The position numbers and the translations under genes are program-made. 64,000 bases of DNA, taken from NCBI GenBank assembly GCA_019359315.1, contig JAHHHO010000016.1, forward strand, positions 1 to 64,000. Direction: 5' to 3'. Below the pieces are notes generated by a model, which made no database searches, had not been told where the DNA came from, and saw only the letters and a list, made by a program, of their open reading frames with translations. The DNA is from Myxacorys californica WJT36-NPBG1 (GTDB lineage: Bacteria; Cyanobacteriota; Cyanobacteriia; Leptolyngbyales; Leptolyngbyaceae). Positions 18,834 to 44,955 of the stretch are shown here, in pieces; the stretch's first letter is position 1, and every line of letters begins with the position of its first letter.

Positions 18834-20732
18834 TTAGGACTGTTGAAGATACCGATTGAAGCGGGTTTGAAGTTGCTCGATCGAGAGGTTCTGGCTCCAG
18901 TACTCAGTCAGCGCATGACCAAACGCCCACGCTTGTCGATCGGGCGGGGCAGAATTTTCAACGAGCAAGCTCCAAAGGGCTAGCAGGTCGAAACTAGGAG
19001 GTGTCGGTCGATCGGCGGTCAGAAGATTGTATAGGTCGTATGCCATTTGCAATTTGCCAATCACAATCGGCAACTGCTCAACCGGAATGTTTCTCTCTAG
19101 CAGCAGTGCCAAGGCTGGAGAGCCAGTGGTTAGGGTTGAAAGAAACCGCAGAATTGGACTTTTGAGAAAGGCGGTGAGTCCTTGAGTGGTTGCCATCTGA
19201 AAAGTGTAGCGATCGATAATTCTGGCAGCCGCCATTGTTCTAGCGTCTATGTTTTTGAGAAAGCGGGCGAGGCGGAGTTGTTTGGCAGGCGCGATCGCGT
19301 CTAGGATGGCGATCGACAAGTCCTCTAGTCCCCAAGCCGTTCGGGTGTCCGATCCAGTCACGATTGGCAGGACCAAGGCGCAAGACTGTCCCAAAACATC
19401 AGCACGATACATTACCGCCTCGCGAATCGAAACTTCTTTGGGACGTTCGCCCGTCTGCCAGTTGTAGGGAGGAGTCCATTCACGAATCGGGCGCAACCGA
19501 TCGACTTGAGTCACCACACCCAGCATCGGCAAGTCTGGCCTATCAGATTTTAGATCTTTGAGAAAGTCTAGATCCATCTGCAAAGCTGGATCGAGCGCCG
19601 GAGTTGCCAGCAGAACAAGATCAGTTTGAGCGGCGTGATCGAGAACCTGATCTCGGAGCTCCGTACGATCGACCTGTTCATACCCAGGCGTGTCCCAAAG
19701 CGTTAGCGTCTCTCCAGTTTGGGTATCCCACCGATACGCCTGAATTTGATCGGTCGAGGGCAGGGCATCCACTTGAGCATTTGCCTTGACAAATAATGTA
19801 TTGATCAAGCTGCTTTTCCCGGCCCCGGTGCGACCGACCAGCATTAAATTGACGGGCTGTTGCTCAACGGCTTCGGGCGGCGTTGCCTGATTAATGATAT
19901 TTCGTAGCGTCTGAGTTTCGGCCTTTGGTACGGCGGGTTGGGCAACAAGGAGATCAGTTTTTGGTGCGTTGCTACCGCTATAGAGCGCGATCGCTTGTCT
20001 GGCTAAATTTCGCAGTGCCGCTTCTCGTAAGAGTTGATTTAAATTTCCGAGTAATTCTTGAGTGGCACGATTGTTGGTCTTTTGAGTGGCAGTTCGAGCG
20101 ATCGCCACGGCTGGATTCAGAACCCATTGCGCCCAACTCCACGCCTTGAGGAGCCGGCGCGCGGACGGTTCTAGCTTCTGATAAACCTCGTAGGCTTGGT
20201 AGGCTTGCCCAATTGTGACTTGATTGAGAACGGGTGACAGTCGCCCCATCCATTGGTCTAAATCGTCTACCGTGCCTCGCAGCAGCGCATAGGCTTGCGG
20301 AATGTAGATGTTGAGCAACGGCTTTTGGGTTTGCGGATAGTAGACTCGTGCGATCGCTTGAATCACACTCTGACATCGTTGCCAAAAGATGTTCCAGTCC
20401 TCCCATAAGGGCGGATCGGTGCGCGACGCTTCTAGAATCGCTTGAACTTCGGCTTCTGCTTTTTCACCTAATCCACCCGCTGATGCAGGCGTTAGGGATT
20501 CGACAGATTCTTCAGAAAGCTCAGCGACGACGGCTTCGACTTGCTGCAGGGCAGGCTGTGTCCATTTCACAAGCAGCCATCTCCACCCTACAAACAGCAG
20601 TCCGACGATTGCCCAGATCCAGTTAATGCCCCATTCGTGAATCTGCAATCCAGCCGCGATCAGGAGAAAACCGACGACGAGTGCGATCGGAAGTCCTAAA
20701 ACCGCCCACTGCCAACGCTGCAATCGCACCAT
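18834..20732 (-). CDS. membrane-associated GTPase (Era/YeeP-like)
   Basis: A protein of 632 residues from the ATG at 20732, which has a ribosome site (AAGGAAAG) 7 bases upstream. The longer frame to 20858 has none and includes a 15-bp minisatellite. Two N-terminal membrane spans (about 10-55) are followed by a helical region. The GTPase domain is at about 295-460: G1 GRTGAGKSS, G3 DTPG, G4 TQVD (TxxD variant). A helical C-terminal region ends the protein. Relatives are cyanobacterial GTPases of unknown function, possibly acting at the membrane. The gene is divergent from the small membrane protein at 20949. Confidence 0.8.
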   Translation of the reverse strand: MVRLQRWQWAVLGLPIALVVGFLLIAAGLQIHEWGINWIWAIVGLLFVGWRWLLVKWTQPALQQVEAVVAELSEESVESLTPASAGGLGEKAEAEVQAILEASRTDPPLWEDWNIFWQRCQSVIQAIARVYYPQTQKPLLNIYIPQAYALLRGTVDDLDQWMGRLSPVLNQVTIGQAYQAYEVYQKLEPSARRLLKAWSWAQWVLNPAVAIARTATQKTNNRATQELLGNLNQLLREAALRNLARQAIALYSGSNAPKTDLLVAQPAVPKAETQTLRNIINQATPPEAVEQQPVNLMLVGRTGAGKSSLINTLFVKANAQVDALPSTDQIQAYRWDTQTGETLTLWDTPGYEQVDRTELRDQVLDHAAQTDLVLLATPALDPALQMDLDFLKDLKSDRPDLPMLGVVTQVDRLRPIREWTPPYNWQTGERPKEVSIREAVMYRADVLGQSCALVLPIVTGSDTRTAWGLEDLSIAILDAIAPAKQLRLARFLKNIDARTMAAARIIDRYTFQMATTQGLTAFLKSPILRFLSTLTTGSPALALLLERNIPVEQLPIVIGKLQMAYDLYNLLTADRPTPPSFDLLALWSLLVENSAPPDRQAWAFGHALTEYWSQNLSIEQLQTRFNRYLQQS

Positions 20733-20861
20733 AATGCTTTCCTTGGTTTCGACCTCTTTATGGTAGAAAATTCGTCCGCGTCTTTTGCCCTTCGTAATGA
20801 AACGAAGAGTGATGGGCAAATTGGGACTAGGGCGGGAATTCTGAAAGGCAGCATCCACTCT

Positions 20862-21284: not shown

Positions 21285-21366
21285 ATCCTAATTTGTCCGG
21301 CCTTTGGCAAGCCGATCTGCCTCAAAGCTGTCACAAGAAACAAGAAAAAGGACTGTTACAAGAATA

Positions 21367-21392
21367 AAGGGTGAGTCGCGCGACTCACCCTT
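21367..21392. terminator. bidirectional terminator palindrome
   Basis: A 26-bp perfect palindrome (13-base arms meeting at CGC|GCG, stem starting AAGGGTGAGTC) sits between the convergent membrane-protein and DUF928 genes. Confidence 0.7.
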
Positions 21393-21428
21393 CAACAGGC
21401 AAAGCTTCAGTTACACAAGCCAAATGAA

Positions 21429-22244
21429 TTACAATGGCCCAGCAACTTGAACCCGTCGTTGGGCAATATTGACGGGATCACTTCCTGCTTGAGCTAGTAA
21501 AGACTTTAGCTCAGCTTTCAGGGCAGCGTTACCAGGATTTTCTTGATTGGCACGAATCAGAGAATTGAAGGCATCATACCAAATGCCTTCATGAGCGAAA
21601 CTGACTGCTTGATCAAAATCAGATTGACCTGCCACTTGTTGAAGTAACATTGGCTCATCAATCCGCTCAATGAAACTCCTGGCATAGACTTCACTAGATG
21701 ATCCCTCTTTGCAAGCCAGCAGCACTGTCCAACGGTAAGTTTTGTTTGCTTGCAACACAACTGAGGTGGGCAGCTCGATTTGAGAAATACCAGATTGGTT
21801 GATCTGGAGGGTTTTGCTGAAAATTGGTTCTGCTCTACTCGGATCAGCCAAGATGAACTGAGCCGACATCGCCTGCTTAGTGTTGGTGTGCCAGAAAAAG
21901 GTTGGGTTTGCTGTCGTTGTATACAACCCTTCGTTCGCGTTTGGCACCAGCAGAGTCATCGTCGTTGGCGAGGAGCCTTTGCTAGAGTTACAGGCGGTAC
22001 TCACCTGAGTTGTACTAGCTTGTCCACGCCTACCGCCCGATAGTGTACTGCGGATTGTACCCAGCTTCTTCTTGGGCGTCCAGCGCACGCGCTGAGAAGG
22101 CGCGGCAGTGGCAGAAGATCCAACCTGAAGGGGCTGAGAGAGTGTGAACTCGATTGAAGCAGCCGCGATCGCAATCAAACTTGTCACCGTCAGTGGGGTG
22201 AGAAACCGAAGCAATCTAAGTGTAGTCATAAGTTTGAATGTCAT
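21429..22244 (-). CDS. DUF928 family exported protein
   Basis: A protein of 271 residues (ATG 22244; ATG 22229 is an alternative). A signal/anchor segment (LLRFLTPLTVTSLIAIAAAS) is followed by a DUF928-like domain: LLVPNANEGLYTTTANPTFFWH, IELPTSVVLQANKTYRWTVLLAC, and a helical tail (FAHEGIWYDAFNSLI). DUF928 genes in cyanobacteria commonly sit beside CHAT/FHA and CHASE2 genes, exactly as here. It lies downstream of the CHAT gene on the same strand. Its role is unknown; the context suggests an envelope partner of the CHAT protein. Confidence 0.75.
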   Translation of the reverse strand: MTFKLMTTLRLLRFLTPLTVTSLIAIAAASIEFTLSQPLQVGSSATAAPSQRVRWTPKKKLGTIRSTLSGGRRGQASTTQVSTACNSSKGSSPTTMTLLVPNANEGLYTTTANPTFFWHTNTKQAMSAQFILADPSRAEPIFSKTLQINQSGISQIELPTSVVLQANKTYRWTVLLACKEGSSSEVYARSFIERIDEPMLLQQVAGQSDFDQAVSFAHEGIWYDAFNSLIRANQENPGNAALKAELKSLLAQAGSDPVNIAQRRVQVAGPL

Positions 22245-22557
22245 TGAGATGTGGACATTGCACGATCTACGAAGTGCCAATCTTGCAAAAACAAAACAAA
22301 CCTTTATTGCGCTTTTCGGTTTAAGAAAGCAACAAAACAGGGGCTGTCGTAGAGGTTTTTGATCATGACTGACCTGATGCGCCGAGATGGTCGAGAAGTA
22401 AGTATAGACTTCTCGGCCGAAAAGCTCAATTGGGTAAAGTCTCTGACCGAAGTATCCGTTTAGCTCGCCGCCCGAGGTAGCTTAGCTTCCAGAACTCTCT
22501 TGCAAACCGAAACTTCCATCTGGTTTGTGATAACTGCTCATAGTCCTCACCACGCGT
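22245..22557. other. spacer between the CHAT gene and the DUF928 gene
   Basis: 313 bases, both neighbours on the minus strand. A hairpin CGAGAAGT/ACTTCTCG (22392-22399 and 22408-22415) has no T-run. Nothing else is recognisable. Confidence 0.4.
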
Positions 22558-25500
22558 TTACCACGGATTTCCAACCAGCGTGAAGGCTGACCAGTAGAAC
22601 GGATGAGTGAACAGAATTGTTCCGGTTCGGGGAACGATTTTTGTCGGCAGTAATACAGACTTTTGGCTTGTGATCAGCCTGCCGTTCTCGATCCGAACCG
22701 CGCCATTTTTGAGCGCAAGTTGGGCGCGTCTGAGCGCTTCTGAGCGAGTCGGGGCGGTTTGCAGTTGAATGTAAAATTCGCTCATGAGAGCGAGGGTTCC
22801 AATATCTGAAACCGTCCAGAGGCTACCCATGACTGAATGAACCCCAGCTGCGGCAGCAAGTCCGGCAAACCCTAACTCGGCAGAGGTACTGCCGATCGCA
22901 GTGTCGCAGGCGCTTAGGACAAGTAGTTCTAATGGCGGATTTGCCCAGCCCAGAGATTTCATTTGAGCAAGATTGATTCGAGTATTCCAAAGTTGAATGT
23001 AGGACTGACTCGGCGCTCCAATATTAAACTGAGCGTGGGTGGCAAGGTGAATAATGCCTGGATTTTCAATCCGTTTCTGACGTAAGAGTTCCTCAACTGT
23101 AAATTCTTGGTTGAGAAACTGTTTTCCTTTCCAAAACTCTTCGCTGACAAGTTGTAATTCGGTTGGAACGGCGGGCAAGGGCGCGAGCGATGAGAATTGA
23201 TCTGCGCCCATCGCTAAGAGGGTGCGATCGCGCAAATCGGTAATTTCTCGATTCACCAAAGAAACGCTAGGAATCACGGAGACCGTGTAGCGCTGAATGG
23301 CATAATCTTGCTGGTCTGCAATGGCTGCTATGGGGATCGTCCTCAACCCTTCGTCCAAACAATAAATGAGGCTAGTAATTTGCTGTCGTTTTAGCTGTGC
23401 TTCCAAGGGTTGCAGGAGCCAGCCATAAAGTTGTCGGGCAAGCGCAGTGTACCCTTGGTCATCATCTACATCGGAGACAGCTAAGCGAAAGAGCTTAGCT
23501 TGCTGAAGAACTTGAGCGCGAGTAGCCGTGGTGGAATAGCGAATGGCTTCTCCTGTCGGAGCTACTAGCACCAAATCTAGTCGATCGTCGTTGCGTTTGA
23601 GCTTTGATCGTAAGAACGGAGTAACGGGTTCTACAGAATCTTGGTAGCGCTCTCCGTTTTTGGGCGCAGGAGCGATCGTTTGAGGTGTGAAGATGGCATA
23701 GACAACGACTGATCGCACGTTCTTTTGTTTTTGAACCTGACTCAGGGTAGCTTCAATTTCTTGCAGTCCTAACTTTGGGGCGTTATCAAGTCCGTAGTAT
23801 TGCTCGTAGTCATTACTGAGAGACTGATCTAGATTTCCCACGATCGAGAGCGGTTGCGGCGCTTCAATAGGAGGTTTTGTCTCTAGATTCGGCTGATTTT
23901 GACCCGTTAGGTCTGTTGGTTTAACTGCTCCTGGTGGGGGAACTGAAGGAGTTGGGGAAGGAGTTGGAGTTGGGGAAGGAATTGGGGAAGTTGGAGGTGA
24001 TGAATTTGACTCGAATGCACCAATGTCGATCACCGTTTGTTGAATTCGAGGAGCGCCTCTTTGGTCAGTTGGCGTTGCGATCGCGTTATTGCCTGCGTTA
24101 ACCGCAGGGCTTCTAGGCAACAGCGCATGCGTTTGAGAGAACCCCCCGTTATTTGCTAATGCCTCAAGCAGTGGATCGATTGGATTTGTCGCTGTTCCAA
24201 CTAGCGTACTCTTGGTAAATCCTGTACTGCCATCCCGAATCCCGATTAAGTTGTTCCCTTGGTCGGTAAAGAGCCCTGCAACGTCAGGACTACTTGCACT
24301 TCGATTTCCTGCGATGATCGTATTTTGAAGCTGAGCACTTCCTGAGCGATTAAAAATTCCTCCACCCGCATTGTTAGCTTGATTATTGGTCAAGGTATTG
24401 TTTCTAATCAGAGTCGTTCCGCTACTATAAATTCCGCCGCCTTCCGTGGCAGAATTGCCCGAAATCGTGACATTGGTTAGGTTAAGGGGAGCCGTGCTGA
24501 AGATTCCGCCGCCATCTCCCGTAGCTTTGTTTCCTTCAATCAGCGATCGCAGAATTGTTGTTGGTCCATTCGTGTAAATTCCTCCAGCGTTGCCCCCGCC
24601 AGGACTAGGGTTGCCTTGGGCTATGTTCTGTAAAACCGTACTGTCTAGGAGTTGAAGCTGACCCGTATTCGTATTATTAATGCCACCGCCTTGAATAAGA
24701 GCGCGGTTATTAAACAGGGTGCTATTTCTAAGCGTTACGTTAGCACCACTGTTTTGAATACCCCCGCCGTTTCGCCCAGCTTGGTTGTTAGTAATATTGC
24801 TATCGATGATCGTTGTTGTGTTGCCTAAATGTAGTCCGCCACCATCCGTTTTAGCTTGATTCTGCGAAATAGTTGTAGTGTCGATCGCGGTTGTTCCGAA
24901 GGCAGCTAACCCACCACCGCTCGTGGCAGCTTGATTATTAAAAATGGTGCTGCCTGAGATGTATAGGTTGTTTCCGATACTGAAGATTCCTCCCCCTTGC
25001 TCGGTCGCACTATTACCCGAAATCGAGCTGTCTCTGATGTTCACGAAGCGATCGCCGAAGATGACGATCGCCCCTCCTGTGCGGGCACGATTATCTGTAA
25101 AATCGGTTCTTAAAATGCTCAATTCAGAGGCGGAGCCGTTGTTGGTAAGCCCGCCGCCATACCCTGATCCGCTGATGGCAGCGTTATTCGACAGTTTACT
25201 GTCCGAAAGAATTAACGTCGCTTGGTTATAAATTCCACCTCCATCTTGACCTGCGTTGTTATTAGTGATGAAACTATTTGAGATTATCATCACTGATTCA
25301 TTTTCTATTCCACCTCCATTGATCTTAGCGATGTTATTGCTGATTGTCGTACCGCGAATATCTGCAACTCCTAAATTATAAAATCCTCCTCCATTAGCAC
25401 CTGCCCTATTTCTCAGAATGCTGCCTCCTATAACAGTTAAATTCGTTTGATCATTTTGAATTCCTGCTCCAGAGAAAACGGCTGTATTGTCAGAAATAGT

Positions 25501-27684
25501 ACTATTCGTAATTGTTGCATCCCGACTTTGGAAGAGGGAAATTCCACCTGCATACTGAGCCGTGTTGTTAGAAATGACGCTGTCTGCAATGTTCAGTTTT
25601 GCACCAAAGGTGTTTTCAAGTCCACCTCCTCCGTTCGTCGCTGTGTTATTAGAAATCGTGCTGTTGAAAATATTGACGATGCTGGCGATCGGGGTTGAAA
25701 TGCCTCCCCCATAGGTCGCGCGATTCCCACTAATTTGACTATCGCGAATTGTGAGGTTGGAGTTTGCACCCGAAACATAAATGCCACCCCCGACACTGGT
25801 CGTTTGTCCACCTGTGATAGTCAAGTTTTGTAGAGTAGCGTTGACGTTGCCTTTTACTTCTAGAACGCGAGCAGTGCCGCTTCCAGTCAAGGTTGCTGTG
25901 GGTGCACCTTGTAGGTTGACCGAACGATCCAAAATTAGAGGAGCGCCGCTGTATGTTCCCGCGCCTAAATTAATGGTTCGATTGCCGTTAGTGTTTCCGA
26001 TAGAGTTAATTGCATTTTGAATCGAATTATTGGGTGCATTCGCTTCGGCTGCAACTTGATTGAGATTAAACGTCAAGTCACCTAGACTACTAAGATTGAT
26101 GATTGCGTTGCTAAAATGATTAAATCTGCGTCCCGTTAGCGTTAAGGAAGCTGTTCCACCACCTGTTTGATTAATCGAATCTGTAAGCGTGATGTCTCCC
26201 TGTCCAACGCCTCCTCCGGCTGTTGTAAGAGTGACATTCGTTCCGTTGTTCATTGCTGCTGCGATCGTGGTTGGATCGATCGTTCCCATTGCTGCAAGGG
26301 GATCAAAAATTCCCGAAATCGGTGTCCCTGATCCGCCGTTCGCAATATTGATGTCAGATGGATCAAGTAGCCACGAACCCGCGCTAACTCTTGCGCCCGT
26401 TACATCTAGACTGGCTTTCCCAGACGTTTCAACCTGTCCGCCCTTAGCCGTGATTCCTCCCTGAAATCGAGTTGCCTGATCTGACCATAGAACAACGGTT
26501 CCACCCCTGCCAGTTTGGAGGGCATTAGCATTAATCTGAGTTTCAGCATCGCCAAAAACGAATTGAGCGTGAGGCAAACTGCCTTTTCCCTGATAGTCTC
26601 CTCCGATTAAAACCGTCCCGCCGCTTGTGGGTGTCGAAGCGTCAAGTTGAGCGTTGAGCAGCGCAATCTTTTCTCCAAAAACTTGAATCGAGGGAGTATG
26701 AATGGTGGGTAGCTGGGAGGATGTCACCGAGAGCCTGCCGCTTGCGCTTCCTTCATTTCGCGAAGCGATAATCGCCATACCGCGCTCGATGGGAACTGGA
26801 GGCGATGATGGCGTTAGCTTGATCACACCATTTTCAATCGTAGAACCGGTCGCATTGCTTAACACTCCGCCTGTCAGTAGCTCTGGCAACACTGTTTCAG
26901 CTAATGTTCCGGTTGCAAGACTTTGATTACTTTTGCTAATAGGCAGATCCAAACTCAGCAAGCTCCCTTGCGGGGTCACTCGCACAATTCCTTCACTGGG
27001 AATTGCCGCGATCGCAATCCTGCCCCCCGGCGCACTCAGCGTTCCTGTGTTAACAACGGTTCCTCCCAAAAGGGCGAGCGACTGTCCTTGACCGACCGAT
27101 AAGTTTCCAGCATTAAATACAATATTTGGATTACGGCTTGAAAACGAGAAGCGGCTAGGCGCACCCATTAGTGACGTATAATCAGTTGAACCCGTTGCGT
27201 TGAACCAGGTTTGATTGTCAAACCCGATTGCAGTTGCAGTCGTGGCGCTAAACGAAGCAGGAACATTGAGTTGAGCCGTTGCCGCAAAAATGATGCCTGA
27301 CGGATTCATTAAAAATAAGTTCGAGTTGGCACCCGTAACCTGAATCAGTCCTTGAATAACAGAGGCATCTCCCCCCACCACGCGACCTAAAATGTTTTGA
27401 ATCGTTGGGTTGGAGATAAAATTGGCAGTTTGCTCTGGTGAAAGATTAAATTGTTCAAAGCTGTGAAAAAGATTGTCCCCTGCCTGCGTTCCTCCCCCAA
27501 TCTCAAGCTGATTCCCGTGAGGTGTTACTTTAGTCCCCGTTCCATCCGAGGCTGGGGTAATGGGCTCTGCTTGTGCCACTAGCTCCGCAGGAACCGCTGC
27601 ACTAGGCTCTGACCCGCAAAGCTCTAGAGGAACAAACAGAAATACCCACAGCAGCACAACATCTGCTCGATGTAGGTTGATCAT
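22558..27684 (-). CDS. TPS/haemagglutinin N-terminus, beta-helix repeats and C-terminal CHAT protease domain
   Basis: A protein of 1,708 residues from ATG 27684. The order is: signal sequence (about 1-35); filamentous-haemagglutinin TPS domain (FHSFEQFNLSPEQTANFIS, IQGLIQVTGANSNLFLMNPS, GIIFA); FHA-like strands; and from about 600 to 1180 some twenty right-handed beta-helix rungs of the ISGNSATEGGGIYSSG type. A proline-rich linker (PTPTPSPTPS, about 1230) precedes the CHAT caspase-like domain (about 1280-1705), with His in GIIHLATHAQF (about 1549) and Cys in LVLSACDTAIG (about 1591). TPS domains direct two-partner secretion; CHAT domains are cysteine proteases. A secreted or surface protease is inferred. 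No TpsB transporter gene lies in the window. Confidence 0.9.
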   Translation of the reverse strand: MINLHRADVVLLWVFLFVPLELCGSEPSAAVPAELVAQAEPITPASDGTGTKVTPHGNQLEIGGGTQAGDNLFHSFEQFNLSPEQTANFISNPTIQNILGRVVGGDASVIQGLIQVTGANSNLFLMNPSGIIFAATAQLNVPASFSATTATAIGFDNQTWFNATGSTDYTSLMGAPSRFSFSSRNPNIVFNAGNLSVGQGQSLALLGGTVVNTGTLSAPGGRIAIAAIPSEGIVRVTPQGSLLSLDLPISKSNQSLATGTLAETVLPELLTGGVLSNATGSTIENGVIKLTPSSPPVPIERGMAIIASRNEGSASGRLSVTSSQLPTIHTPSIQVFGEKIALLNAQLDASTPTSGGTVLIGGDYQGKGSLPHAQFVFGDAETQINANALQTGRGGTVVLWSDQATRFQGGITAKGGQVETSGKASLDVTGARVSAGSWLLDPSDINIANGGSGTPISGIFDPLAAMGTIDPTTIAAAMNNGTNVTLTTAGGGVGQGDITLTDSINQTGGGTASLTLTGRRFNHFSNAIINLSSLGDLTFNLNQVAAEANAPNNSIQNAINSIGNTNGNRTINLGAGTYSGAPLILDRSVNLQGAPTATLTGSGTARVLEVKGNVNATLQNLTITGGQTTSVGGGIYVSGANSNLTIRDSQISGNRATYGGGISTPIASIVNIFNSTISNNTATNGGGGLENTFGAKLNIADSVISNNTAQYAGGISLFQSRDATITNSTISDNTAVFSGAGIQNDQTNLTVIGGSILRNRAGANGGGFYNLGVADIRGTTISNNIAKINGGGIENESVMIISNSFITNNNAGQDGGGIYNQATLILSDSKLSNNAAISGSGYGGGLTNNGSASELSILRTDFTDNRARTGGAIVIFGDRFVNIRDSSISGNSATEQGGGIFSIGNNLYISGSTIFNNQAATSGGGLAAFGTTAIDTTTISQNQAKTDGGGLHLGNTTTIIDSNITNNQAGRNGGGIQNSGANVTLRNSTLFNNRALIQGGGINNTNTGQLQLLDSTVLQNIAQGNPSPGGGNAGGIYTNGPTTILRSLIEGNKATGDGGGIFSTAPLNLTNVTISGNSATEGGGIYSSGTTLIRNNTLTNNQANNAGGGIFNRSGSAQLQNTIIAGNRSASSPDVAGLFTDQGNNLIGIRDGSTGFTKSTLVGTATNPIDPLLEALANNGGFSQTHALLPRSPAVNAGNNAIATPTDQRGAPRIQQTVIDIGAFESNSSPPTSPIPSPTPTPSPTPSVPPPGAVKPTDLTGQNQPNLETKPPIEAPQPLSIVGNLDQSLSNDYEQYYGLDNAPKLGLQEIEATLSQVQKQKNVRSVVVYAIFTPQTIAPAPKNGERYQDSVEPVTPFLRSKLKRNDDRLDLVLVAPTGEAIRYSTTATRAQVLQQAKLFRLAVSDVDDDQGYTALARQLYGWLLQPLEAQLKRQQITSLIYCLDEGLRTIPIAAIADQQDYAIQRYTVSVIPSVSLVNREITDLRDRTLLAMGADQFSSLAPLPAVPTELQLVSEEFWKGKQFLNQEFTVEELLRQKRIENPGIIHLATHAQFNIGAPSQSYIQLWNTRINLAQMKSLGWANPPLELLVLSACDTAIGSTSAELGFAGLAAAAGVHSVMGSLWTVSDIGTLALMSEFYIQLQTAPTRSEALRRAQLALKNGAVRIENGRLITSQKSVLLPTKIVPRTGTILFTHPFYWSAFTLVGNPW

Positions 27685-28189: not shown

Positions 28190-29941
28190 ATGTCACCACA
28201 TACTATGGAACCAAATTCTGTTTACCGGGTTCGCCCACGGGGACAGAAGTTTTTATGGAGGCACCGAGTTCTTGGCCTGTCTGGGCTTGCGGCGGCAGGG
28301 TGTGTCTTGTTGGTTCGAGCATTGGGAGGATTACAGCTTTCAGAGTTGGCGGCGTTTGATCACTTGCTTCAACTCCGCCCTTCAGAACCTGCCGACGATC
28401 GCATTGTGCTTGTGGGGTTCAGTGAGAAAGATTTTCAGACCCTGAGAAGCGCTCAGATTTCGGATCAGATCTTGGCGGATGTGCTAACCCAGATCAAAGC
28501 GCAAAAGCCTCGTGTGATTGGGCTAGATCTGTATCGGAATTTGCCGACACAACCTGGTAATGCAGCATTATTAAATGTATTCCGAACGACTCCCAATCTC
28601 ATTGGAATTGCCAAAATCGTTGGCAGTGACGATGGCAAGGATGTAGCAGGGCATCCGATCTTACTTGAGACCGATCGGATTGCAGCGAGTGATGTCATTC
28701 CAGATGTGGACGGGCGAGTCCGGCGTGGACTGTTGTTCACGAACAACGGCCCTTCCCCGATTGAAGGACTAGGGCTGAGAGTAGCATTAGAGTACCTAGC
28801 AAAGTTAGGAATTACTCCGGAAGAGAGTTCTGACAATTTGTTACGAATTCGAAGCGCTAGATTTGTGCAATTTAGCAAGAATGATGGTGGGTATGTAAAT
28901 GCGGATGATGGTGGCTATCAAGTATTAGTCAATCCGCGTGGACGACGAGACCCATTTAGAACCGTTTCGGTAGAAGAGGTTTTGAACAGAACATTGCCGT
29001 TAACCACATTTCGCGATCGCATTGTGTTTGTGGGTAACATTTCTGCTGGCGATTCGGACATGTTTTTTATGTCGTATAGCAGCGAGACGGGTTCTACACC
29101 CGTTCCCGTTTCGGGCATGGAGCTGCACGCTACACTGACAAGTCAAATCTTGAGTGCGGTACTGAATCGGCGTCCTCTCCTTCAAGTTGCGCCAAAGTGG
29201 GTGGAGTGGAGTTTAATTATTCTCCTAGCCTATGTAAGTGCTTGGATTGGAACACGGCGGCTATCTCATTTGTACAAAATCACGCTGACGCTGGCGTTGA
29301 TGGGTGGGGTTGTCTTGATCTGTTCCCTCGCGCTCAATCTTGGTTGGTGGTTGCCGGTTGTGCCGATGTCGCTAGCTATTGTCATCGCAGGCGCGACGAT
29401 GATGACCTTTGAGGCACAACAGCTTACCATTTTGTCGAATCAAGATCCGCTCACGCTGCTGGCAAATCGCCGGATGTTTGATGAAACGCTGTATCGCGAA
29501 TGGTACCGATCGCTGCGATCGCAGACGCCGCTCGGATTGATCTTATGTGATGTTGACTACTTCAAAAGCTACAACGACACCTACGGGCATTCTAAAGGCG
29601 ATCACTGCCTGCGTGCGGTCGCGAGCGTGTTAAAGAGATCGGTAAAGCGCCCAACTGATTTGGCAGCGCGTTATGGAGGCGAAGAGTTTGTGATTCTCTT
29701 GCCTAATACAGATTCCCACGGTGCGCTTCGAGTCGCTAAACTAATTCAGTTAGAAATGCAAGCGCTACAAATCGATCACAGTGGATCGCGGGTTTCTCCG
29801 TTTGTGACGTTGAGCTTGGGAATCGCAAGCATAGTGCCATCCACAGATGTGATGACTGAGTTATTGATTGATGTTGCCGACGCGGGACTCTATGAAGCGA
29901 AACGCAAAGGGCGAAATCAGGTGGTGCTGAAGCTGCCATAA
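28190..29941 (+). CDS. CHASE2-GGDEF diguanylate cyclase
   Basis: A 583-residue membrane receptor. One N-terminal span (about 24-42) is followed by a periplasmic CHASE2 domain (FDHLLQLRPSEPADDRIVLV to FVGNISAGDSD). Three spans follow (about 338-410), then a cytosolic GGDEF domain: QDPLTLLANRRMFDE, signature RYGGEEF, and inhibitory I-site RPTD nine residues before the signature. The active site and feedback site are both intact, so it should make cyclic di-GMP under control of an extracytoplasmic signal. CHASE2 genes often accompany CHAT and DUF928 genes in cyanobacteria. Another nearby c-di-GMP protein is at 53.1-54.9 kb. Confidence 0.92.
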   Translation: MSPHTMEPNSVYRVRPRGQKFLWRHRVLGLSGLAAAGCVLLVRALGGLQLSELAAFDHLLQLRPSEPADDRIVLVGFSEKDFQTLRSAQISDQILADVLTQIKAQKPRVIGLDLYRNLPTQPGNAALLNVFRTTPNLIGIAKIVGSDDGKDVAGHPILLETDRIAASDVIPDVDGRVRRGLLFTNNGPSPIEGLGLRVALEYLAKLGITPEESSDNLLRIRSARFVQFSKNDGGYVNADDGGYQVLVNPRGRRDPFRTVSVEEVLNRTLPLTTFRDRIVFVGNISAGDSDMFFMSYSSETGSTPVPVSGMELHATLTSQILSAVLNRRPLLQVAPKWVEWSLIILLAYVSAWIGTRRLSHLYKITLTLALMGGVVLICSLALNLGWWLPVVPMSLAIVIAGATMMTFEAQQLTILSNQDPLTLLANRRMFDETLYREWYRSLRSQTPLGLILCDVDYFKSYNDTYGHSKGDHCLRAVASVLKRSVKRPTDLAARYGGEEFVILLPNTDSHGALRVAKLIQLEMQALQIDHSGSRVSPFVTLSLGIASIVPSTDVMTELLIDVADAGLYEAKRKGRNQVVLKLP

Positions 29942-31935: not shown

Positions 31936-31942
31936 ATGCTAG
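31865..31942 (+). CDS. possible 25-residue upstream ORF overlapping the cpcB start
   Basis: ATG 31865 opens a frame of 25 codons rich in Ser, Pro and Asn ([20 protein letters not shown]...) that ends at TAG 31940-31942, seven bases inside cpcB in another frame. It has no ribosome site, so translation is doubtful. The overlap geometry would allow translational coupling. It may be chance. Confidence 0.25.
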
Positions 31943-32460
31943 ATGCATTCGCTAAGGTTGTCTCCCAGGCTGACGCCAAAGGTGATTTTCTGAGCAGCGG
32001 TCAATTCGATGCGCTGAACAACATGATCAAAGAAGGCAACAAGCGCATTGATGCCGTTAACCGCATCAGCACCAACGCTTCGTCGATCGTCACCGATGCT
32101 GCTCGCGCTCTATTTGAAGATCAGCCTCAACTCATCCAGCCCGGTGGAAACGCTTACACCAACCGTCGCATGGCAGCTTGCTTGCGCGACATGGAAATCA
32201 TCTTGCGCTATGTAACCTATGCGTTGATGGCAGGTGATGCAAGCGTTCTCGACGATCGTTGCCTCAACGGTCTGCGCGAAACCTACCAAGCTCTTGGCGT
32301 TCCCGGTGGTTCGACAGCGGCTGGTGTGCAGAAAATGAAGGACATCGCGATCTCCATTGCTAACGATCCCGAAGCTTCTGGTATTGTTCGTGGCGACTGT
32401 AGCTCCATCATGTCTGAGCTATCGAGCTACTTCGATCGCGCTGCTTCTGCGGTTGCTTAA
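31936..32460 (+). CDS. cpcB: C-phycocyanin beta subunit CpcB
   Basis: A 174-residue globin-fold antenna protein of phycobilisome rods. The PCB-binding Cys82 in [20 protein letters not shown] and the methylatable Asn72 (GGNAYTN) are in their canonical places. The second bilin cysteine (canonical 153) is Cys155 in VRGDCSS, because the loop [12 protein letters not shown] is two residues longer than usual. The [14 protein letters not shown] wording identifies phycocyanin rather than phycoerythrocyanin. It is the first gene of the operon, with ribosome site AGGAGA, and cpcA follows after 96 bases with its own site. Confidence 0.97.
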
Positions 32461-32556
32461 GCGATCGCTGTTGATCGAGCATTCCGCCTCGATCGGATAA
32501 GCATTGTTTTCACCACACCTTTGCAGAACACACTTTTTTAGGGAGATAACCAAACA

Positions 32557-33045
32557 ATGAAGACCCCAATTACTGAAGCGATCGCAGCAGCAGATACTCA
32601 AGGTCGGTTCTTGGGTAACACCGAATTACAAGCGGCTAACGGTCGTTTTGAGCAAGCAACTGCTGGTTTAGAAGCAGCTCGTGCGTTGACTCAAAATGCT
32701 CAGCGCTTGATTGATGGCGCAGCTAACGCTGTGTACCAGAAGTTCCCATACACCACCCAAATGCAGGGTCCTCAGTACGCCTCTGACTCTCGTGGTAAGT
32801 CCAAGTGCGCTCGTGATATCGGTCACTACGTCCGCATGGTTACCTACTGCCTAATCGCTGGTGGTACAGGTCCGATGGATGAGTACTTGATTGCTGGTCT
32901 AGACGAAATCAACCGCAGCTTCGAGCTTTCTCCTAGCTGGTACGTTGAAGCCCTCAACCACGTTAAGGCAAACCATGGTCTGAGTGGTCAAGCTGCTAAC
33001 CAAGCAAACACCTACATCGACTACGCGATTAACGCCCTGAGCTAA
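32557..33045 (+). CDS. cpcA: C-phycocyanin alpha subunit CpcA
   Basis: A 162-residue partner of CpcB; the pair forms the (alpha-beta)6 discs of phycobilisome rods. The N-terminus [19 protein letters not shown], the bilin-binding Cys84 in [12 protein letters not shown], the segment [20 protein letters not shown] and the C-terminus [11 protein letters not shown] are typical. Ribosome site AGGGAGA is in place. Attachment of PCB to Cys84 is normally done by the CpcE/CpcF lyase, whose cpcE gene is broken further down this operon. A strong hairpin follows the stop codon. Confidence 0.97.
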
Positions 33046-33058
33046 TCTTCAGGTGCTG

Positions 33059-33129
33059 TGCCCGGAGAAATTAGCGAGTGTTGGCAGAGTGGCTAACAGT
33101 TGCTCGTTTTTCCGGGCATTGTTTTTCTT
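33059..33129 (+). terminator. cpcBA/cpcC intercistronic hairpin (partial terminator)
   Basis: TGCCCGGA (33059-33066) pairs with TCCGGGCA (33111-33118), with an inner GCGAG/CTCG pairing, and is followed by TTGTTTTTCTT. It looks like a leaky terminator or RNA-stabilising hairpin. Such a hairpin would make cpcBA mRNA more abundant than the linker message, as in other cpc operons. Confidence 0.75.
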
Positions 33130-33170
33130 AATTTTGGTTAAGAAGTTTATTGTTGTGTTGGGGGACAAGC

Positions 33171-34058
33171 ATGGGCGGCTTATTAGTGAATAACTTGGCA
33201 GCAGCCGGACCGTTGGGACTGTCTGCATTTGATAGCTCTTCTAGAGTTGAGCTACGGCCCGATTGGACAGAGACTGAGCTGCAATCCGTATTTCGAGCAG
33301 TGTACCGTCAGGTTTTGGGCAACGACTATGTGATGAAGTCAGAACGGTTGACCTCTGCTGAATCGTTACTGCGGCAAGGCACAATGACCGTGCGCGAATT
33401 TGTCCGGGCGGTGGCTAAATCTGAACTGTATAAAAACAAATTTTTCTACCGCAATTCAAACCAGCGGTTTGTTGAACTGAACTTTAAGCATTTGCTCGGT
33501 CGCGCTCCTTATGAAGAAGCGGAGTGGGCATATCACACGGGTCTGTGTGAAGAGCAGGGCTACGATGTTGAGATTGACTCTTACATCGACAGTATGGAGT
33601 ACGAGAATAAGTTTGGCAACAATGTCGTTCCGTACTACACCGGCTTTCAGGTCGAACCTGGCGTTAGAACCACCGGCTTTACCCGGATGTTCCGGTTGTA
33701 TCGGGGTTATGCCAGCAGCGATCGCGGCAGCGTTGGCGGCAAATCTCCTCGCCTGACTCGAGAGTTGGGTCAAAATTTTGCCTCACGGATTGACCGACCT
33801 TCAAGCGGCGGCAGCGGTGGATCGGGCTGGAAACATGCAGCAATTCCTGAGGACGCTGCGCCCAGAAGAGCGCTGGGTGGAACTCAGCAGGAAAGCGGAC
33901 GGGTGTATCGCATTGAAGTGACTGGAATTTTACAGCCTGGGTATCCGAAGGTGCGTCGCAGCAGTAACGCGATCTTGGTGCCCTACGAACAACTCTCCCA
34001 AAAACTTCAAGAGATTACAAAGAAGGGCGGCAAAGTTGTGAATGTGTCGCGTGCCTAG
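33171..34058 (+). CDS. cpcC: phycobilisome rod linker CpcC
   Basis: A protein of 295 residues. I start at ATG 33171, ten bases after GGGGGA; the frame extends to a TTG at 33150 without support. An N-terminal PBS-linker (pfam00427) domain occupies about residues 25-175 ([60 protein letters not shown]). A Gly/Ser-rich spacer follows. The C-terminal CpcD-like domain (about 240-295) reads [20 protein letters not shown] and [21 protein letters not shown]. It joins phycocyanin hexamers within rods. Only one rod linker of this kind is in the operon. Confidence 0.95.
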
Positions 34059-34128
34059 AGCAAGACTGGGAGGCGGACAGCTGTCTCCCTAACTGCTCAA
34101 TGGATTTTATACAGGAGCAATAATAATT

Positions 34129-34488
34129 ATGTTTGGTCAAACTGCACTAGGCGGCAGCAGGCTGAGTGGAGCTGAAAATCGGATGTTTCGCTATGAAGTC
34201 GAGGGCATGCGCCAGACTTACGAAACCAATCAACTCAGTTACCCAATTCGCGCAAGCGGCAGCTTCTACATTACGGTTCCATACAATCGAATGAATGAGG
34301 AAATGCAGCGAATTCTCCGCATGGGCGGCAGGATTGTGAGCATTGAGCCGTTGACGCTCGATGGAAATGGCGGCGCGAAGATGCAAGCTGCAACCGCGCA
34401 TCAAAATTTAGAAGCAGAAGGCAAAAGCGAAGCAACAGAAGTTCAACAGACAACGGAAGCAAAGCGGGACGAGTCGCTCGATCGCTAG
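34129..34488 (+). CDS. cpcD: CpcD-like small rod linker with C-terminal extension
   Basis: A protein of 119 residues. Residues 1-80 are a CpcD domain (MFGQTALGGS, MFRYEVEGMRQTYETNQLSY, FYITVPYNRMNEEMQRILRM, GGRIVSIEP), the cap that ends rods at the distal hexamer. Ordinary CpcD ends here. This one adds about 38 charged, Gln/Glu/Ala-rich residues with no recognised motif. A second, standard-length CpcD gene follows after 165 bases, so the two probably arose by duplication. Confidence 0.88.
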   Translation: MFGQTALGGSRLSGAENRMFRYEVEGMRQTYETNQLSYPIRASGSFYITVPYNRMNEEMQRILRMGGRIVSIEPLTLDGNGGAKMQAATAHQNLEAEGKSEATEVQQTTEAKRDESLDR

Positions 34489-34653
34489 GCATCAAGCTAG
34501 AGGCGTGAGTTGTGTCAGCGGTTTTGCGCCGATGATCAAGTAGCCCATAACGCGGGGATGCTTTGCGTCGCGCTTTACCTGTTGTTCTAATAACCGTTGT
34601 TCTAACGTTTACTATCAATTCAGTTCGTTATCCACAAGTGAGGGATTCAACCT

Positions 34654-34884
34654 ATGTTTGGTCAAACAACCGTTAGTTCAGGTGGAATTTCGTCGTCAGC
34701 CAGTCGCATGTTTCGCTATGAAGTCGCTGGCTTGCGTCAAAACAGCGAAACGGATCAAAACAATTATGAGATTCGGAATAGCGGCAGCGTGTTTATCACG
34801 GTTCCCTATAATCGCATGAGTGACGAAATGCAGCGTATCACGCGGCTGGGCGGCAGAATCGTCAAAATTGAAGCACTAGGCTGA
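34654..34884 (+). CDS. cpcD: phycobilisome rod-capping linker CpcD
   Basis: A protein of 76 residues, the usual size. MFGQTTVSSGGISSSASRMF, YEVAGLRQNSETDQ and FITVPYNRMSDEMQRITRLG make a complete CpcD domain. It is very similar to the preceding gene in its core. It caps phycocyanin rods at the end far from the core. It is directly followed by the broken cpcE. Confidence 0.92.
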   Translation: MFGQTTVSSGGISSSASRMFRYEVAGLRQNSETDQNNYEIRNSGSVFITVPYNRMSDEMQRITRLGGRIVKIEALG

Positions 34885-34899
34885 TCTTGCCCGTTATAA

Positions 34900-35585
34900 A
34901 AGGTTCGAGCGAACAGCTCAATTCACCCGATGCTCAGTCTTTGGACGTAGAGCAAGTCTTCCAAATCTCCGTCTCGAAGATTTAAGCTTGCGTTACGATA
35001 CGGTGTGCTACCTGGCCAGCTTGAAGTGCGCGATGCGGCGGCAGTAGCGGCATTGATTGTGGTAGCAGATGACGATGAAAATTGCACCGTTGTGGGTAGC
35101 ATCCATCGCGACGTAATGTTTCACCGGCGCTTGGTAAGCTTGGCGATAAGCGGGCAGTAGCGGCGCTAACTTCGGTGTCTCGACTGCTCTATTTTTACGT
35201 TCGAGAAGCGGCAGCACAAGATCAGGATGACTACAATTACGGCGCTGACGCGCTTAGCATGTAGGTACTCGCCGTGATCGCAGATCTGCTCACCTTATAG
35301 AAGTGCTACTCGACACGGCAAATTCACGCTCAACCCTTACAGACATTATTCCTAGTGTTACAAGACTCCGATTGAGCGATTTGTGATGTGGCGATTCGCT
35401 TTGCGAAGCTCCGAAGGATCGCGGCAATGCAGTCTTGGATGTCAGCCGTTCAGGATACTCCTGAAACTAAAGATTTGATTCACCTAGCCCTCAATCGGTT
35501 AAAGCAACTGCGCCGAACCGTTTTGGGTGCCGTGGTCAAAGCACGAGTCTTGATGGCTCAACCCCAGCTTACGATTGTCCCCTAA
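34900..35585 (+). pseudogene. cpcE: cpcE pseudogene (phycocyanin alpha-84 phycocyanobilin lyase subunit)
   Basis: No frame is open through this 0.7 kb, but pieces of CpcE appear in order in different frames. They are DAQSLDVEQV (about 34929), LEDLSLRY (about 34972), QLEVRDAAAVAALIVVADDD (from 35017), ALGKLGDKRAVAALTS (35127-35174), FYVREAAAQ (35193-35219), and a C-terminal helical tail ending PETKDLIHLALNRLKQL. Intact CpcE reads SPDLSLRYYAAWWLGKF...ALGKLGD.RAV...DFYVREAAAQ with HEAT-like repeats. Several frameshifts and stops separate the pieces, so no active lyase can be made. The position after cpcD is the usual place for cpcE. Confidence 0.85.
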
Positions 35586-35598
35586 CGCACAATAATCT

Positions 35599-36435
35599 AT
35601 GCTGCCTTTACTAGAAGTTAATCCTAAAACTCAGAACCAGCGCGTCAATGGCTATGACGTGATGGATGAGGACGATCCGATTAAATATCGGCTAGCGGAC
35701 GCAAGAGGTCCAGAAGATGTCGAGCTCATCATCTGGGCAGCCTACCGCCAGATTTTCGGGGAGCATCTAATCCTAGAAAGTTACCGTCAAAAAAATCTGG
35801 AATCGCAACTGACAAATCGCGCCATTACGGTTGCTGATTTCATTCGCGGACTCGGAAAATCGGATGTGTATCGTCGATTGGTCGCTGACACTAATTCTAA
35901 TTATCGACTGGTTGATATCACGCTCAAGCGCTTCTTAGGTCGGTCGTCTTATGGAAAAGACGAGCAGATTTCGCAATCGATCATCATTGCGACTAAAGGC
36001 TTGCATGGGTTTATCGATACGATCGTCGATAGTGACGAATACCGCGAAAACTTTGGTACAGATATCGTTCCGTTTCAACGGCGTCGGCTCGAGGGGCGTC
36101 CATTTAACTTGGTCAATCCGCGCTATGGCGACTACTGGCGCAATCGCTTGATGTCGCTAGATTTTGCGACGCGTTCTTACTACCAAGTGCGGACTTACAG
36201 CGCGGGCGATCTCGATAAGAAAGTGATTCGCCAAGCGATTCCAGCCAACTTCTTAACGATGGCGCAAAGCTTATCGACGCCTCAATTGGATTCGCAACGT
36301 CACGTAGCACGGGCGACTTCCAGCGCGATCGCGGTTCCTGACATGAGCCGTAAGACCGTAACGACCGGATCCACAGTTCGCCGTCCTTCCGTCGCGTTGC
36401 CCTACCGCTACCTTCCTTCAACGAAGAAAGTGTAA
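35599..36435 (+). CDS. cpcG: phycobilisome rod-core linker CpcG (first copy)
   Basis: A protein of 278 residues. MLPLLEVNPKTQNQRVNGYD is the CpcG N-terminus. A PBS-linker domain (about 25-185) includes ITVADFIRGLGKSDVYRRLV, RLVDITLKRFLGRSSYGKDE and [20 protein letters not shown]. The C-terminal part, which should contact the core, ends with a basic tail (YRYLPSTKKV). There is no C-terminal membrane helix, so it is a CpcG1-type core-attaching linker, not the CpcL type. It has only partial similarity to the next two copies beyond the linker domain, which suggests old duplications. Confidence 0.94.
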   Translation: MLPLLEVNPKTQNQRVNGYDVMDEDDPIKYRLADARGPEDVELIIWAAYRQIFGEHLILESYRQKNLESQLTNRAITVADFIRGLGKSDVYRRLVADTNSNYRLVDITLKRFLGRSSYGKDEQISQSIIIATKGLHGFIDTIVDSDEYRENFGTDIVPFQRRRLEGRPFNLVNPRYGDYWRNRLMSLDFATRSYYQVRTYSAGDLDKKVIRQAIPANFLTMAQSLSTPQLDSQRHVARATSSAIAVPDMSRKTVTTGSTVRRPSVALPYRYLPSTKKV

Positions 36436-36567
36436 TTTTAGGAATGAGGAATGAAGGATAAGGGATGAATTGTACTCCTACAGCATCACATCTCTTCTTT
36501 CATCCCTCATGACTCCTTGCGTTAGTGTTGCCGAGAGGCATCCTTCATCCCTTACCTTTTACGCCTT

Positions 36568-37311
36568 ATGCCTATTCCTCTCCTTGAGTACAAACCGTCT
36601 TCGCAAAATCAGCGCGTCGAAGGTTACGAAGTTCCGAGTGAAGATACGCCCTATATCTATCGTCTAGAAGACTGCGCGGATCAGAGCGATATTACGGCTC
36701 TGATCTGGTCAGCCTATCGTCAGGTCTTTAGTGAGCACGTGATTCTCAAGAGCAATCGTCAGACCAATTTAGAGTCCCAGCTTAAGAATCGGACGATTAC
36801 TGTTCGCGATTTTGTTCGTGGCTTGGCGAAGTCTGAAACGTTTCGCCGATTGGTGATCGAAAAGAATTCTAATTACCGTTTGGTTGATCTAGCGTTGAAG
36901 CGATTGCTTGGTCGTGCGGCATACAACCAAGCAGAAGAAATCTCTTGGTCGATCAAGATCGCCACCTTGGGATGGGATAACTTTGTTGATGCGATCGTCG
37001 ATAGTGACGAATACTCACAGTCGTTTGGCGATAACACGGTTCCCTATCAGCGCCGTCGGTATAACAATCGCCCGTTTAATCTCGTGACTCCAAGCTATGG
37101 TGACTACTGGCGCGATAAAGAAACCGAAGGTCGCTACAAGTGGGGTGACATCTCTAACTTCCGCGATATGGCGCGATCAGTGACCGTGAATCCAGTGCAG
37201 TATCAGCCTGTATCCACGGCCAACATTGCCATTCCTGATATGACTCGCGATCGCGTTGCCCCTGGAACAGCAGCCTCAATCAGTACTGGCTCTAATTTTC
37301 CGTTGCGCTAA
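36568..37311 (+). CDS. cpcG: phycobilisome rod-core linker CpcG (second copy)
   Basis: A protein of 247 residues. PIPLLEYKPSSQNQRVEGYE opens a full CpcG linker domain ([60 protein letters not shown]). A short C-terminal region ends with SNFPLR, and no membrane helix is present. It attaches rods to the allophycocyanin core. The spacer before it (36436-36567) has GGAATGAGGAATGAAGG-like direct and inverse repeats and no gene. Confidence 0.94.
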   Translation: MPIPLLEYKPSSQNQRVEGYEVPSEDTPYIYRLEDCADQSDITALIWSAYRQVFSEHVILKSNRQTNLESQLKNRTITVRDFVRGLAKSETFRRLVIEKNSNYRLVDLALKRLLGRAAYNQAEEISWSIKIATLGWDNFVDAIVDSDEYSQSFGDNTVPYQRRRYNNRPFNLVTPSYGDYWRDKETEGRYKWGDISNFRDMARSVTVNPVQYQPVSTANIAIPDMTRDRVAPGTAASISTGSNFPLR

Positions 37312-37413
37312 GCGTAACGGTTGCGTCCTCGACGCGAGATAATAGTGTGACGTGGATGATACATCCATTCTTCAAAACAGACTTACCTTATTTATTACGG
37401 GGGAGATTCTGGC

Positions 37414-44735: not shown

Positions 44736-44955
44736 TGCAATGTCCCTTTCGTTAGATTGAGTGATCTCCGTCGGACCGTCTCCGTACGCGATGGAGCAAA
44801 GGTTTCAGAAGATGGATGACCTTTCCTAGAGGTGCGATCGCTGGGATAGATCATCCTATTGCTTAGACTCGATGCTCTGCGAAGCAATCAAATTCTAAGT
44901 TGTTGGCTTTACTGTAGCCGACGAATCCTAGATGAATGCACAAATTCTTCTGAAT

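Follow-up and report, generated by a model that had tools for sequence, protein, structure and literature searches.

A cyanobacterial two-partner-secretion exoprotein with a C-terminal CHAT protease domain and its possible partnership with DUF928 and CHASE2 proteins

TpsA exoproteins of two-partner secretion (TPS), CHAT proteases and CHASE2 receptors are each known, and their combination seems undescribed. Among the CHAT proteases, Csx29 acts within a complex that contains Cas7-11 (PMC10028731), and HetF, which has transmembrane and TPR parts beside its CHAT domain, is active at the divisome (PMC8406250); these papers and those below are cited from passages of their text. In magnetotactic bacteria, MtxA has a signal peptide and an Ig-like plus TPR structure, and the next gene encodes CHASE2 and adenylate-cyclase domains (PMC4439547). 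Here we analyze a window of 64,000 nucleotides (the whole stretch of DNA considered: contig JAHHHO010000016.1, positions 1 to 64,000, forward strand) of the cyanobacterium Myxacorys californica WJT36-NPBG1, in which one gene joins a TPS head to a C-terminal CHAT domain (TPS-CHAT) and is flanked by genes for a DUF928 protein and a CHASE2-GGDEF receptor. We tentatively propose that an exported CHAT, a DUF928 adaptor and a CHASE2 receptor form an extracytoplasmic signalling pathway, which here would feed cyclic di-GMP (c-di-GMP), a reading to which we give nearly, but not quite, even weight. Genomes are labelled G (G000 being the window's own), contigs C, and retrieved loci or stretches L.

The window protein resembles TpsA exoproteins such as filamentous hemagglutinin (FHA) and the ShlA family in its PF05860 TPS domain, its repeat stalk and the single ShlB-type TpsB of its genome. 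It differs from them in its C-terminal CHAT domain, its unlinked TpsB gene and its DUF928 and CHASE2 neighbours. With CHAT proteases (Csx29, the TPR-CHAT of Craspase; SAVED-CHAT; HetF) it shares a predicted fold and a His-Cys pair, whereas export signals and a TPS stalk set it apart from Csx29 and HetF. The adjacent genes are those for DUF928 and CHASE2-GGDEF, not the Cas7-11 and Csx30 genes of the type III-E CRISPR system Craspase, and the wider neighbours were also scanned. The MtxA system offers a likeness of another kind, a secreted Ig-like and TPR protein encoded beside a CHASE2-adenylate cyclase, although the available passages on it mention no CHAT or TPS protein, and DUF928 and MtxA share 9-10% identity in fold alignments and no sequence match. 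The window's receptor is, like Dgc2 of Leptolyngbya boryana, a CHASE2-GGDEF diguanylate cyclase; Dgc2 is CHASE2-PAS-GGDEF, with PAS/PAC (PMC10581220), whereas the window's receptor shows CHASE2 and GGDEF only. An earlier published DUF928-CHASE2 adjacency is a cluster of two WD40 genes, CHASE2 and DUF928 in Nostoc punctiforme, the one of seven surveyed species to have it; CHAT and TPS are not mentioned in the passages that describe it (PMC5587647).

The TPS-CHAT gene and its parts lie in the window as follows.
22558..27684, minus strand: gene for the TPS, beta-helix and CHAT exoprotein, 1708 aa from the ATG, or 1729 aa with a TTG start at 27747
26932..27543, minus strand: TPS secretion domain PF05860, residues 69-272 (Pfam, E 1.6e-43), with NSNL and NPSGI motifs
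24178..25992, minus strand: putative right-handed beta-helix with rungs of 25-27 residues, residues ~586-1190, its handedness and fold predicted from the period analysis
24007..24177, minus strand: choice-of-anchor Q domain (choice_anch_Q, NF041518), residues 1191-1247, E 1.3e-22, followed by a Pro/Ser/Thr-rich linker
22567..23445, minus strand: CHAT protease domain PF12770, residues 1435-1727, E 1.2e-61
23035..23037, minus strand: catalytic His1571 (HLATH), invariant in the alignments, in 1729-aa numbering
22906..22908, minus strand: catalytic Cys1614 (LSACDT), invariant in the alignments, in 1729-aa numbering

The frame is unbroken on the minus strand from either start (ATG 27684 or TTG 27747), and from the ATG the N-terminus is Sec-like, as judged by eye. 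The domains run in the order TPS, beta-helix, choice-of-anchor Q, Pro-rich linker and CHAT. TPS domains have motifs named NPNL and NPNGI, and those of the window protein are of this kind; NCBIfam also places adhes_NPXG at residues 94-172, and Pfam finds a Chlam_PMP repeat (E 2.4e-5). Self-similarity of the repeat region is maximal at a period of 25-26 residues, and residues 653 to 1128 contain 17 glycine-rich anchors, mostly spaced by 24-28 residues with two gaps of double length, from which we count about 20 rungs. An initial annotation, made from the letters of the window, had described this anatomy of TPS head, some twenty rungs and CHAT with His and Cys, and it is confirmed by the Pfam and NCBIfam matches together with the period analysis; the Cys that it placed at about 1591 is Cys1593 in 1708-aa numbering and hence Cys1614 in the numbering used here. 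In comparison with G001, the only other genome of the window's genus among those searched, the ratio of nonsynonymous to synonymous substitution rates (dN/dS) is 0.11 for the whole protein (1687 codons aligned) and 0.085 for CHAT, values that are rough because dS is 1.0-1.5 and synonymous sites are near saturation. A decayed gene is ruled out by the ratio of 0.11.

The giant fusion, which the initial annotation had treated as notable, turns out to be ordinary in cyanobacteria. The loci examined contain 73 open reading frames (ORFs) with both TPS and CHAT (some being near-copies). Of these, 60 are spread over 55 of the best 80 named loci of a pattern search, and all 80 carry names that we take to be cyanobacterial. 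The window's genome has 11 CHAT matches, of which the analysis took in the window's own and those on contig C107. A pattern-based scan of genome contigs with a single protein matched 33 stretches, with no relative among them.

The structure predicted for residues 1291-1729 (window 22561-23877; model md7254a2ddf6f) has a mean predicted local distance difference test score (pLDDT) of 93.1. Its best matches among solved structures are Csx29/TPR-CHAT (Z 27.9, 326 residues aligned), separase (Z 24.9) and gingipain R (Z 18.0), and caspases are matched in the fold search as well; a sequence search of solved structures with the CHAT and DUF928 profiles gave 0 matches. The model has a predicted caspase fold with an intact His-Cys pair, and the range over which it aligns suggests that it spans both the pseudo-caspase half and the active caspase half known from Csx29 (PMC10028731). 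Another match of the model is DdvA (8rot, Z 18.1), a transmembrane anti-sigma factor, possibly a further CHAT-like fold that serves transmembrane signalling.

His and Cys are kept in 24 of 24 CHAT regions from loci that had not been retrieved by pattern. This alignment comprises 23 of 30 loci and the window; L035 (the window's own copy) was omitted, as were L039, L041, L046, L048, L051 and L064, which were cut or whose frames were short or unchosen. The pair is likewise kept in 110 of 110 CHAT ORFs, in an alignment of 111 rows into which the window protein was entered twice. The 110 include one gene taken twice (L022/L023) and near-copies, and since 89 of them come from named loci retrieved with two patterns, one of which contains the His motif, conservation of the His is partly selected and that of the Cys is not. 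For the CHAT reference set, L069:999, L082, L091 and L095 were passed over, their His motif being unlike the search string, and four further CHAT ORFs were skipped for length or masked letters, which gave 81 references; 75 of these and the window were carried forward, with L077:9668, L090:12208, L090:9686, L111, L116 and L143 omitted. Homologues without a conserved catalytic pair, which the initial annotation had named as evidence against its reading, were not seen among the 110 ORFs.

Many cytoplasmic CHAT proteases have been proposed to be cell-death or anti-phage effectors, and the fold of the window's CHAT, its likeness to Csx29 and SAVED-CHAT and a weak match, at 31.5 bits, between its CHAT part and BovA would fit such a role; the BovA match comes from a PADLOC scan of eight proteins of the neighbourhood. 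We regard it as highly improbable here. The TPS head and the signal-like N-terminus place the protein outside the cytoplasm, and on these grounds a cytoplasmic death effector was rejected. The other matches of the scan, of three neighbours to cysteine-desulfurase-like, PLD-like and dynamin-like GTPase entries, are to broad enzyme families, and neither DUF928 nor CHASE2-GGDEF gave a match among the eight proteins, complete defence systems not having been sought.

The rest of the genome suggests how the protein could be exported. Profile searches of it found a single TPS passenger, the window's TPS-CHAT (contig C121), and a single ShlB match, at G000:C115:100577-101530, within a 610-aa protein with ShlB and POTRA_2. 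With this sole ShlB match on C115 and TPS-CHAT on C121, no TpsB gene adjoins TPS-CHAT in the genome, which supports the initial annotation's view that export uses a distant partner. Because there is one TPS and one ShlB in the genome, the two can be paired by elimination, an argument that is strong but not proof. A tpsA gene side by side with its tpsB is usual, as in L160, L084 and L120, but not essential, so TPS-CHAT can still be counted among the TpsA proteins. Among 77 genomes, TPS and the CHAT subfamily (E up to 1e-30) occur together in 65 and are both absent from 11, with TPS only in 1 and CHAT only in 0; TPS and ShlB are both present in 65 and both absent from 10, with 1 + 1 discordant genomes. 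Both sets of figures are inflated by phylogeny and genome size, because several genomes without TPS, ShlB and CHAT are small, although G004, G054 and G073, at 4.7-5.6 Mb, also lack all three. After export, CHAT may come to lie either in the periplasm or beyond the cell.

Its presumed partners are the two flanking genes, both of which the initial annotation had named and Pfam matches confirm.
21429..22280, minus strand: DUF928 protein gene (PF06051, E 3.3e-34) with a Sec-like N-terminus, downstream of TPS-CHAT on the same strand
22023..22040, minus strand: DUF928 linker motif S-G-G-R-R-G, with the second Arg invariant, a candidate site of recognition or cleavage by CHAT
28190..29941, plus strand: CHASE2-GGDEF receptor / diguanylate cyclase (CHASE2 E 3.1e-53, GGDEF E 5.2e-50), upstream of and divergent from TPS-CHAT

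The window's arrangement, CHASE2-GGDEF divergent from TPS-CHAT and then DUF928, is also found in G001, G033 and G040; G041 agrees up to the end of its contig, which falls at the expected place of DUF928. TPS-CHAT, DUF928 and CHASE2-GGDEF stand in a row in Leptolyngbya sp. Heron Island J (L132), which falls with the window into one well-supported eight-member group of the CHAT tree (106 of the 110 CHAT ORFs; short search, midpoint root). In G065 (L160), CHASE2, DUF928, TPS-CHAT, ShlB and a second DUF928 lie within ~10 kb. Overall, the best 80 named loci include DUF928 in 14, CHASE2 in 12, both in 12 and ShlB in 6; among the 34 named loci longer than 20 kb, both DUF928 and CHASE2 occur in 8, one alone in 0 and ShlB in 4.

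A TPS head, a long stalk and an enzymatic C-terminus are also what one would look for in a contact-dependent toxin, the CHAT end being delivered into rival cells in the manner of CdiA-type polymorphic toxins. The neighbourhood makes this very hard to credit, since the gene downstream encodes DUF928 with its Sec-like N-terminus, not an immunity protein. Moreover, the CHAT end, with 65% mean column identity in 24 proteins, is conserved and not swapped, and related CHAT domains exist without the stalk. A polymorphic toxin of the CdiA type was rejected because the C-terminus is conserved and DUF928, instead of an immunity gene, comes next. Neither the self/non-self role that the initial annotation had suggested nor cell-cell killing is supported: DUF928 lies downstream, the CHAT end is not polymorphic and the neighbours point to CHASE2 signalling.

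The exported CHAT also keeps this company in a split form. Seven stretches were chosen for a TPS gene without CHAT near DUF928, blind to separate CHAT genes; six of them (L161, with ShlB, and L163, L164, L165, L166 and L168) have a separate CHAT gene, placed between or next to the TPS and DUF928 genes, and the seventh, L162, has a fused TPS-CHAT. In the split form, a TPS exoprotein of 826-1027 aa and a CHAT protein of 876-963 aa (frames taken stop to stop) are accompanied by DUF928 and CHASE2. Three of the separate CHAT proteins were domain-scanned and are TPR-CHAT proteins with N-termini that look Sec-like by eye. In the CHAT tree, all 8 TPR-CHAT proteins group together with a support of 100, separate from the fusions. 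DUF928 or CHASE2 is present in the stretch for 25 of the 70 rows with a fusion and for 6 of the 8 with TPR-CHAT, the tree set being partly selected. On C107 of the window's genome (L024 2800-10469) there is a second CHAT cluster, with a signal-bearing lone CHAT, a CHAT-CHASE2 protein and DUF928; a sigma-70 region 4 protein and DUF1822 lie divergently upstream in this cluster. Among the other lone-CHAT rows, L099, L113 and L118 resemble terminal pieces of fused genes that are interrupted or masked, which inflates the number of changes counted for the lone-CHAT label.

The C-terminal position of CHAT, behind a Pro-rich linker and a choice-of-anchor domain, could also belong to a maturation domain that, after export, cuts its own exoprotein (for example in the Pro-rich linker) or a sister TPS protein and so releases the beta-helix from the surface, while DUF928 and CHASE2 have a separate role in the cell envelope. 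FHA-type exoproteins do undergo C-terminal processing, and the split form sets a CHAT gene beside a TPS exoprotein that has no CHAT. However, on C107 a lone signal-bearing CHAT stands beside CHAT-CHASE2 and DUF928, although the contig's ORF list has no TPS gene and the sole TPS gene of the genome is the window's. This is one locus only, and we judge maturation to be unlikely as the function of CHAT.

Signalling through CHASE2 receives further support from the DUF928 protein itself. Its predicted structure (model mb4259e9bbb5d; pLDDT 71.8, from a 15-row alignment) is an Ig-like sandwich followed by four helices. MtxA (4z29) is its first match in both fold searches, with a Foldseek E of 5.2e-5 and a VIA Z of 10.0; the VIA alignment covers 150 residues at a root-mean-square deviation of 4.0 and reaches residue 232. 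Since both searches give MtxA and mtxA precedes a CHASE2-cyclase gene, fold and CHASE2 neighbour agree outside cyanobacteria. As a sign of kinship, this agreement is to be set beside VIA rows tied within 1 Z and the want of a sequence match. The DUF928 gene sll1891 is mentioned as acid-stress responsive (PMC5587647).

The N-terminal linker of DUF928 has a G-G-x-x-R-G-like motif whose Arg is present in 37 of 37 proteins, one of five wholly invariant columns in an alignment of 37 of the 39 ORFs (over 200 aa). In the model this Arg falls inside segment 32-52, where pLDDT is <50, and the linker is accordingly predicted to be disordered. By comparison, the cut that Csx29 makes in Csx30 falls within a flexible loop, between residues 427 and 429 (PMC10028731). 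One DUF928 protein (L161 13900-14871) has four tandem 22-residue repeats, each with GGASRG or a near variant, and such tandem copies may be of the kind seen for linear recognition motifs. The Arg motif falls short of proving cleavage, the CHAT-less controls being two genomes of a single genus.

The domains, the intact catalytic residues, the one TPS and one TpsB of the genome, the recurring partners, both arrangements (fused and split), the caspase fold of the model and the invariant Arg in its low-confidence linker are all read from sequence, and from them we infer how such a pathway might work. The exoprotein would have a Sec signal and a TPS domain that passes through a ShlB-type pore encoded elsewhere in the genome, and a beta-helix stalk of about 20 rungs would lead by way of a Pro-rich hinge to the caspase-like CHAT at the C-terminus. 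The exported CHAT, whether fused to a TPS stalk, split into a TPS protein and a signal-bearing TPR-CHAT or, at one locus, alone with its signal, would be the input element, held by the stalk at the outer membrane or in the periplasm. The second part would be DUF928, a putative secreted adaptor of Ig-like and helical parts that resembles MtxA, and the third a CHASE2 transmembrane receptor with a variable cytoplasmic output. CHAT might act on or with DUF928, in the simplest case by cleaving the conserved G-G-x-R-G linker, predicted to be disordered, or by binding to it; DUF928 would then engage the CHASE2 domain and so change the output, here perhaps the synthesis of c-di-GMP by GGDEF. Across loci the outputs of CHASE2 proteins are GGDEF, nucleotide cyclase, histidine kinase or CHAT, and some have no recognized output. 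A receptor and its ligand would be expected to yield such a pattern, in which the output changes and both the sensor and its extracytoplasmic partners stay constant. The periplasm would be favoured as the common compartment by the single lone CHAT that shares these partners.

It is tempting to go further and to imagine a cyanobacterial caspase-like cascade, in which the exported CHAT cuts the DUF928 linker and the freed Ig-helical fragment is the CHASE2 ligand. Swapped outputs would then wire the same input to c-di-GMP, cAMP/cGMP, a phosphorelay or an intracellular CHAT, and a single superfamily of CHASE2 ligands would have DUF928 and MtxA as its two branches. We offer this as speculation and think it quite unlikely in its entirety. 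CHASE2 is a widespread extracellular sensor domain. The recurrent DUF928/MtxA partnership suggests a specific candidate for its ligand or for an adaptor, and the exported CHAT is a candidate for the enzyme upstream; the ligands of CHASE2 are said to be unknown (PMC10581220). If the proposed pathway is real, caspase-fold proteases would sense outside the cytoplasm in cyanobacteria, beyond death or defence. In the open-licence literature that we searched we found no paper that joins the CHAT domain with two-partner secretion and cyanobacteria, with filamentous hemagglutinin or with CHASE2, nor one that joins caspase homolog, hemagglutinin and cyanobacteria; the passages found there on cyanobacterial CHAT caspases do not treat an exported CHAT.

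Several observations weigh against the proposed pathway, and the first concern the neighbourhood itself. The initial annotation had called for the CHAT-DUF928-CHASE2 neighbourhood to be tabulated, and it does recur, but only at a minority of CHAT loci. At the majority of CHAT loci neither DUF928 nor CHASE2 is seen within 10 kb; among the 80 named loci, DUF928 is missing from 66 and CHASE2 from 68, partly because of contig ends. The examples L160-L179 were chosen for adjacency in the match lists and are therefore not frequencies. We also compared distances with random placement (20000 draws) in 11 genomes, those of the 77 with one main chromosome that were in the CHASE2 search; G062 was left out, none of its DUF928 matches being among those listed. 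The test used the main contig only and the coordinates of the matches listed, with rounded sizes for 7 of the 11 genomes. Among the matches listed, only 2 of 23 CHAT cases have DUF928 at a distance of up to 10 kb, against a random mean of 0.21 and a maximum of 4; for CHASE2 at this distance the count is 4 of 23, against a random mean of 0.42 and again a maximum of 4.

In the same test, 9 of 24 DUF928 cases among the matches listed had CHASE2 no more than 5 kb away (random mean 0.24, maximum 3), the strongest association of all. It may be that the true partners are DUF928, as adaptor, and CHASE2, as receptor, and that CHAT/TPS is only one of several inputs that cluster with them, with no relation of protease to substrate. 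The two occur without CHAT in L169, L170 and L171, the published DUF928 and CHASE2 genes are accompanied by two WD40 genes (PMC5587647), and MtxA adjoins a CHASE2-cyclase (PMC4439547). On the other side, DUF928 and CHASE2 recur with both fused and split exported CHAT in several groups of the CHAT tree, and the 4 of 23 cases of CHAT near CHASE2 are about tenfold the random expectation. We consider such a pair, with no protease-substrate relation, rather unlikely.

Other adverse points concern the parts of the proposed pathway. One genome, G057 (88% complete), has 5 TPS matches and no ShlB match. The lone form, and with it the argument for the periplasm, rests on a single locus, L024 being the only one of 12 lone-CHAT rows with DUF928 or CHASE2 partners. 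The fold match of DUF928 to MtxA is modest (TM-score 0.42-0.57), and the next VIA rows, from Z 9.3 and thus tied, mainly concern the Ig part. G054 and G073, which have neither TPS, ShlB nor the CHAT subfamily, each carry a single DUF928 without the Gly pair that still has an Arg near the site, close to the Cys, so the Arg may be structural; the passages of PMC10028731 give no preference of CHAT for Arg. Lastly, TPS-CHAT and DUF928 are separated by 314 nt, and a common transcript is putative.

The scan for terminator-like hairpins found no minus-strand site in this gap and none in G001. Downstream of DUF928 it gave one strong site.
21365..21394, minus strand: terminator-like hairpin of 13 bp after DUF928 (11 sites found in the region by the scan, 8.1 expected from shuffles)
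Because this hairpin is not repeated in G001, we make no claim of an operon for TPS-CHAT and DUF928.

The rest of the window holds other genes. The next large ORF after DUF928 (18834-20858) encodes a 674-aa dynamin/Era-like GTPase protein with a LeoA-like match in PADLOC. On the far side of the receptor gene, 31936-38169 holds phycobilisome rod genes, for two phycobiliproteins, four PBS-linker polypeptides and a CpcD-type linker. These are followed at 38682-50278 by a chemotaxis-type cluster with a 2017-aa hybrid CheA, a methyl-accepting chemotaxis protein with HAMP and a protein with DUF4388 and a receiver domain, and then at 53122-54900 by a REC-GGDEF-EAL protein. An AAA_35 protein adjoins a 1196-aa AAA_35-WD40 protein at 56027-61153, and a transposase gene follows at 61301-62458.

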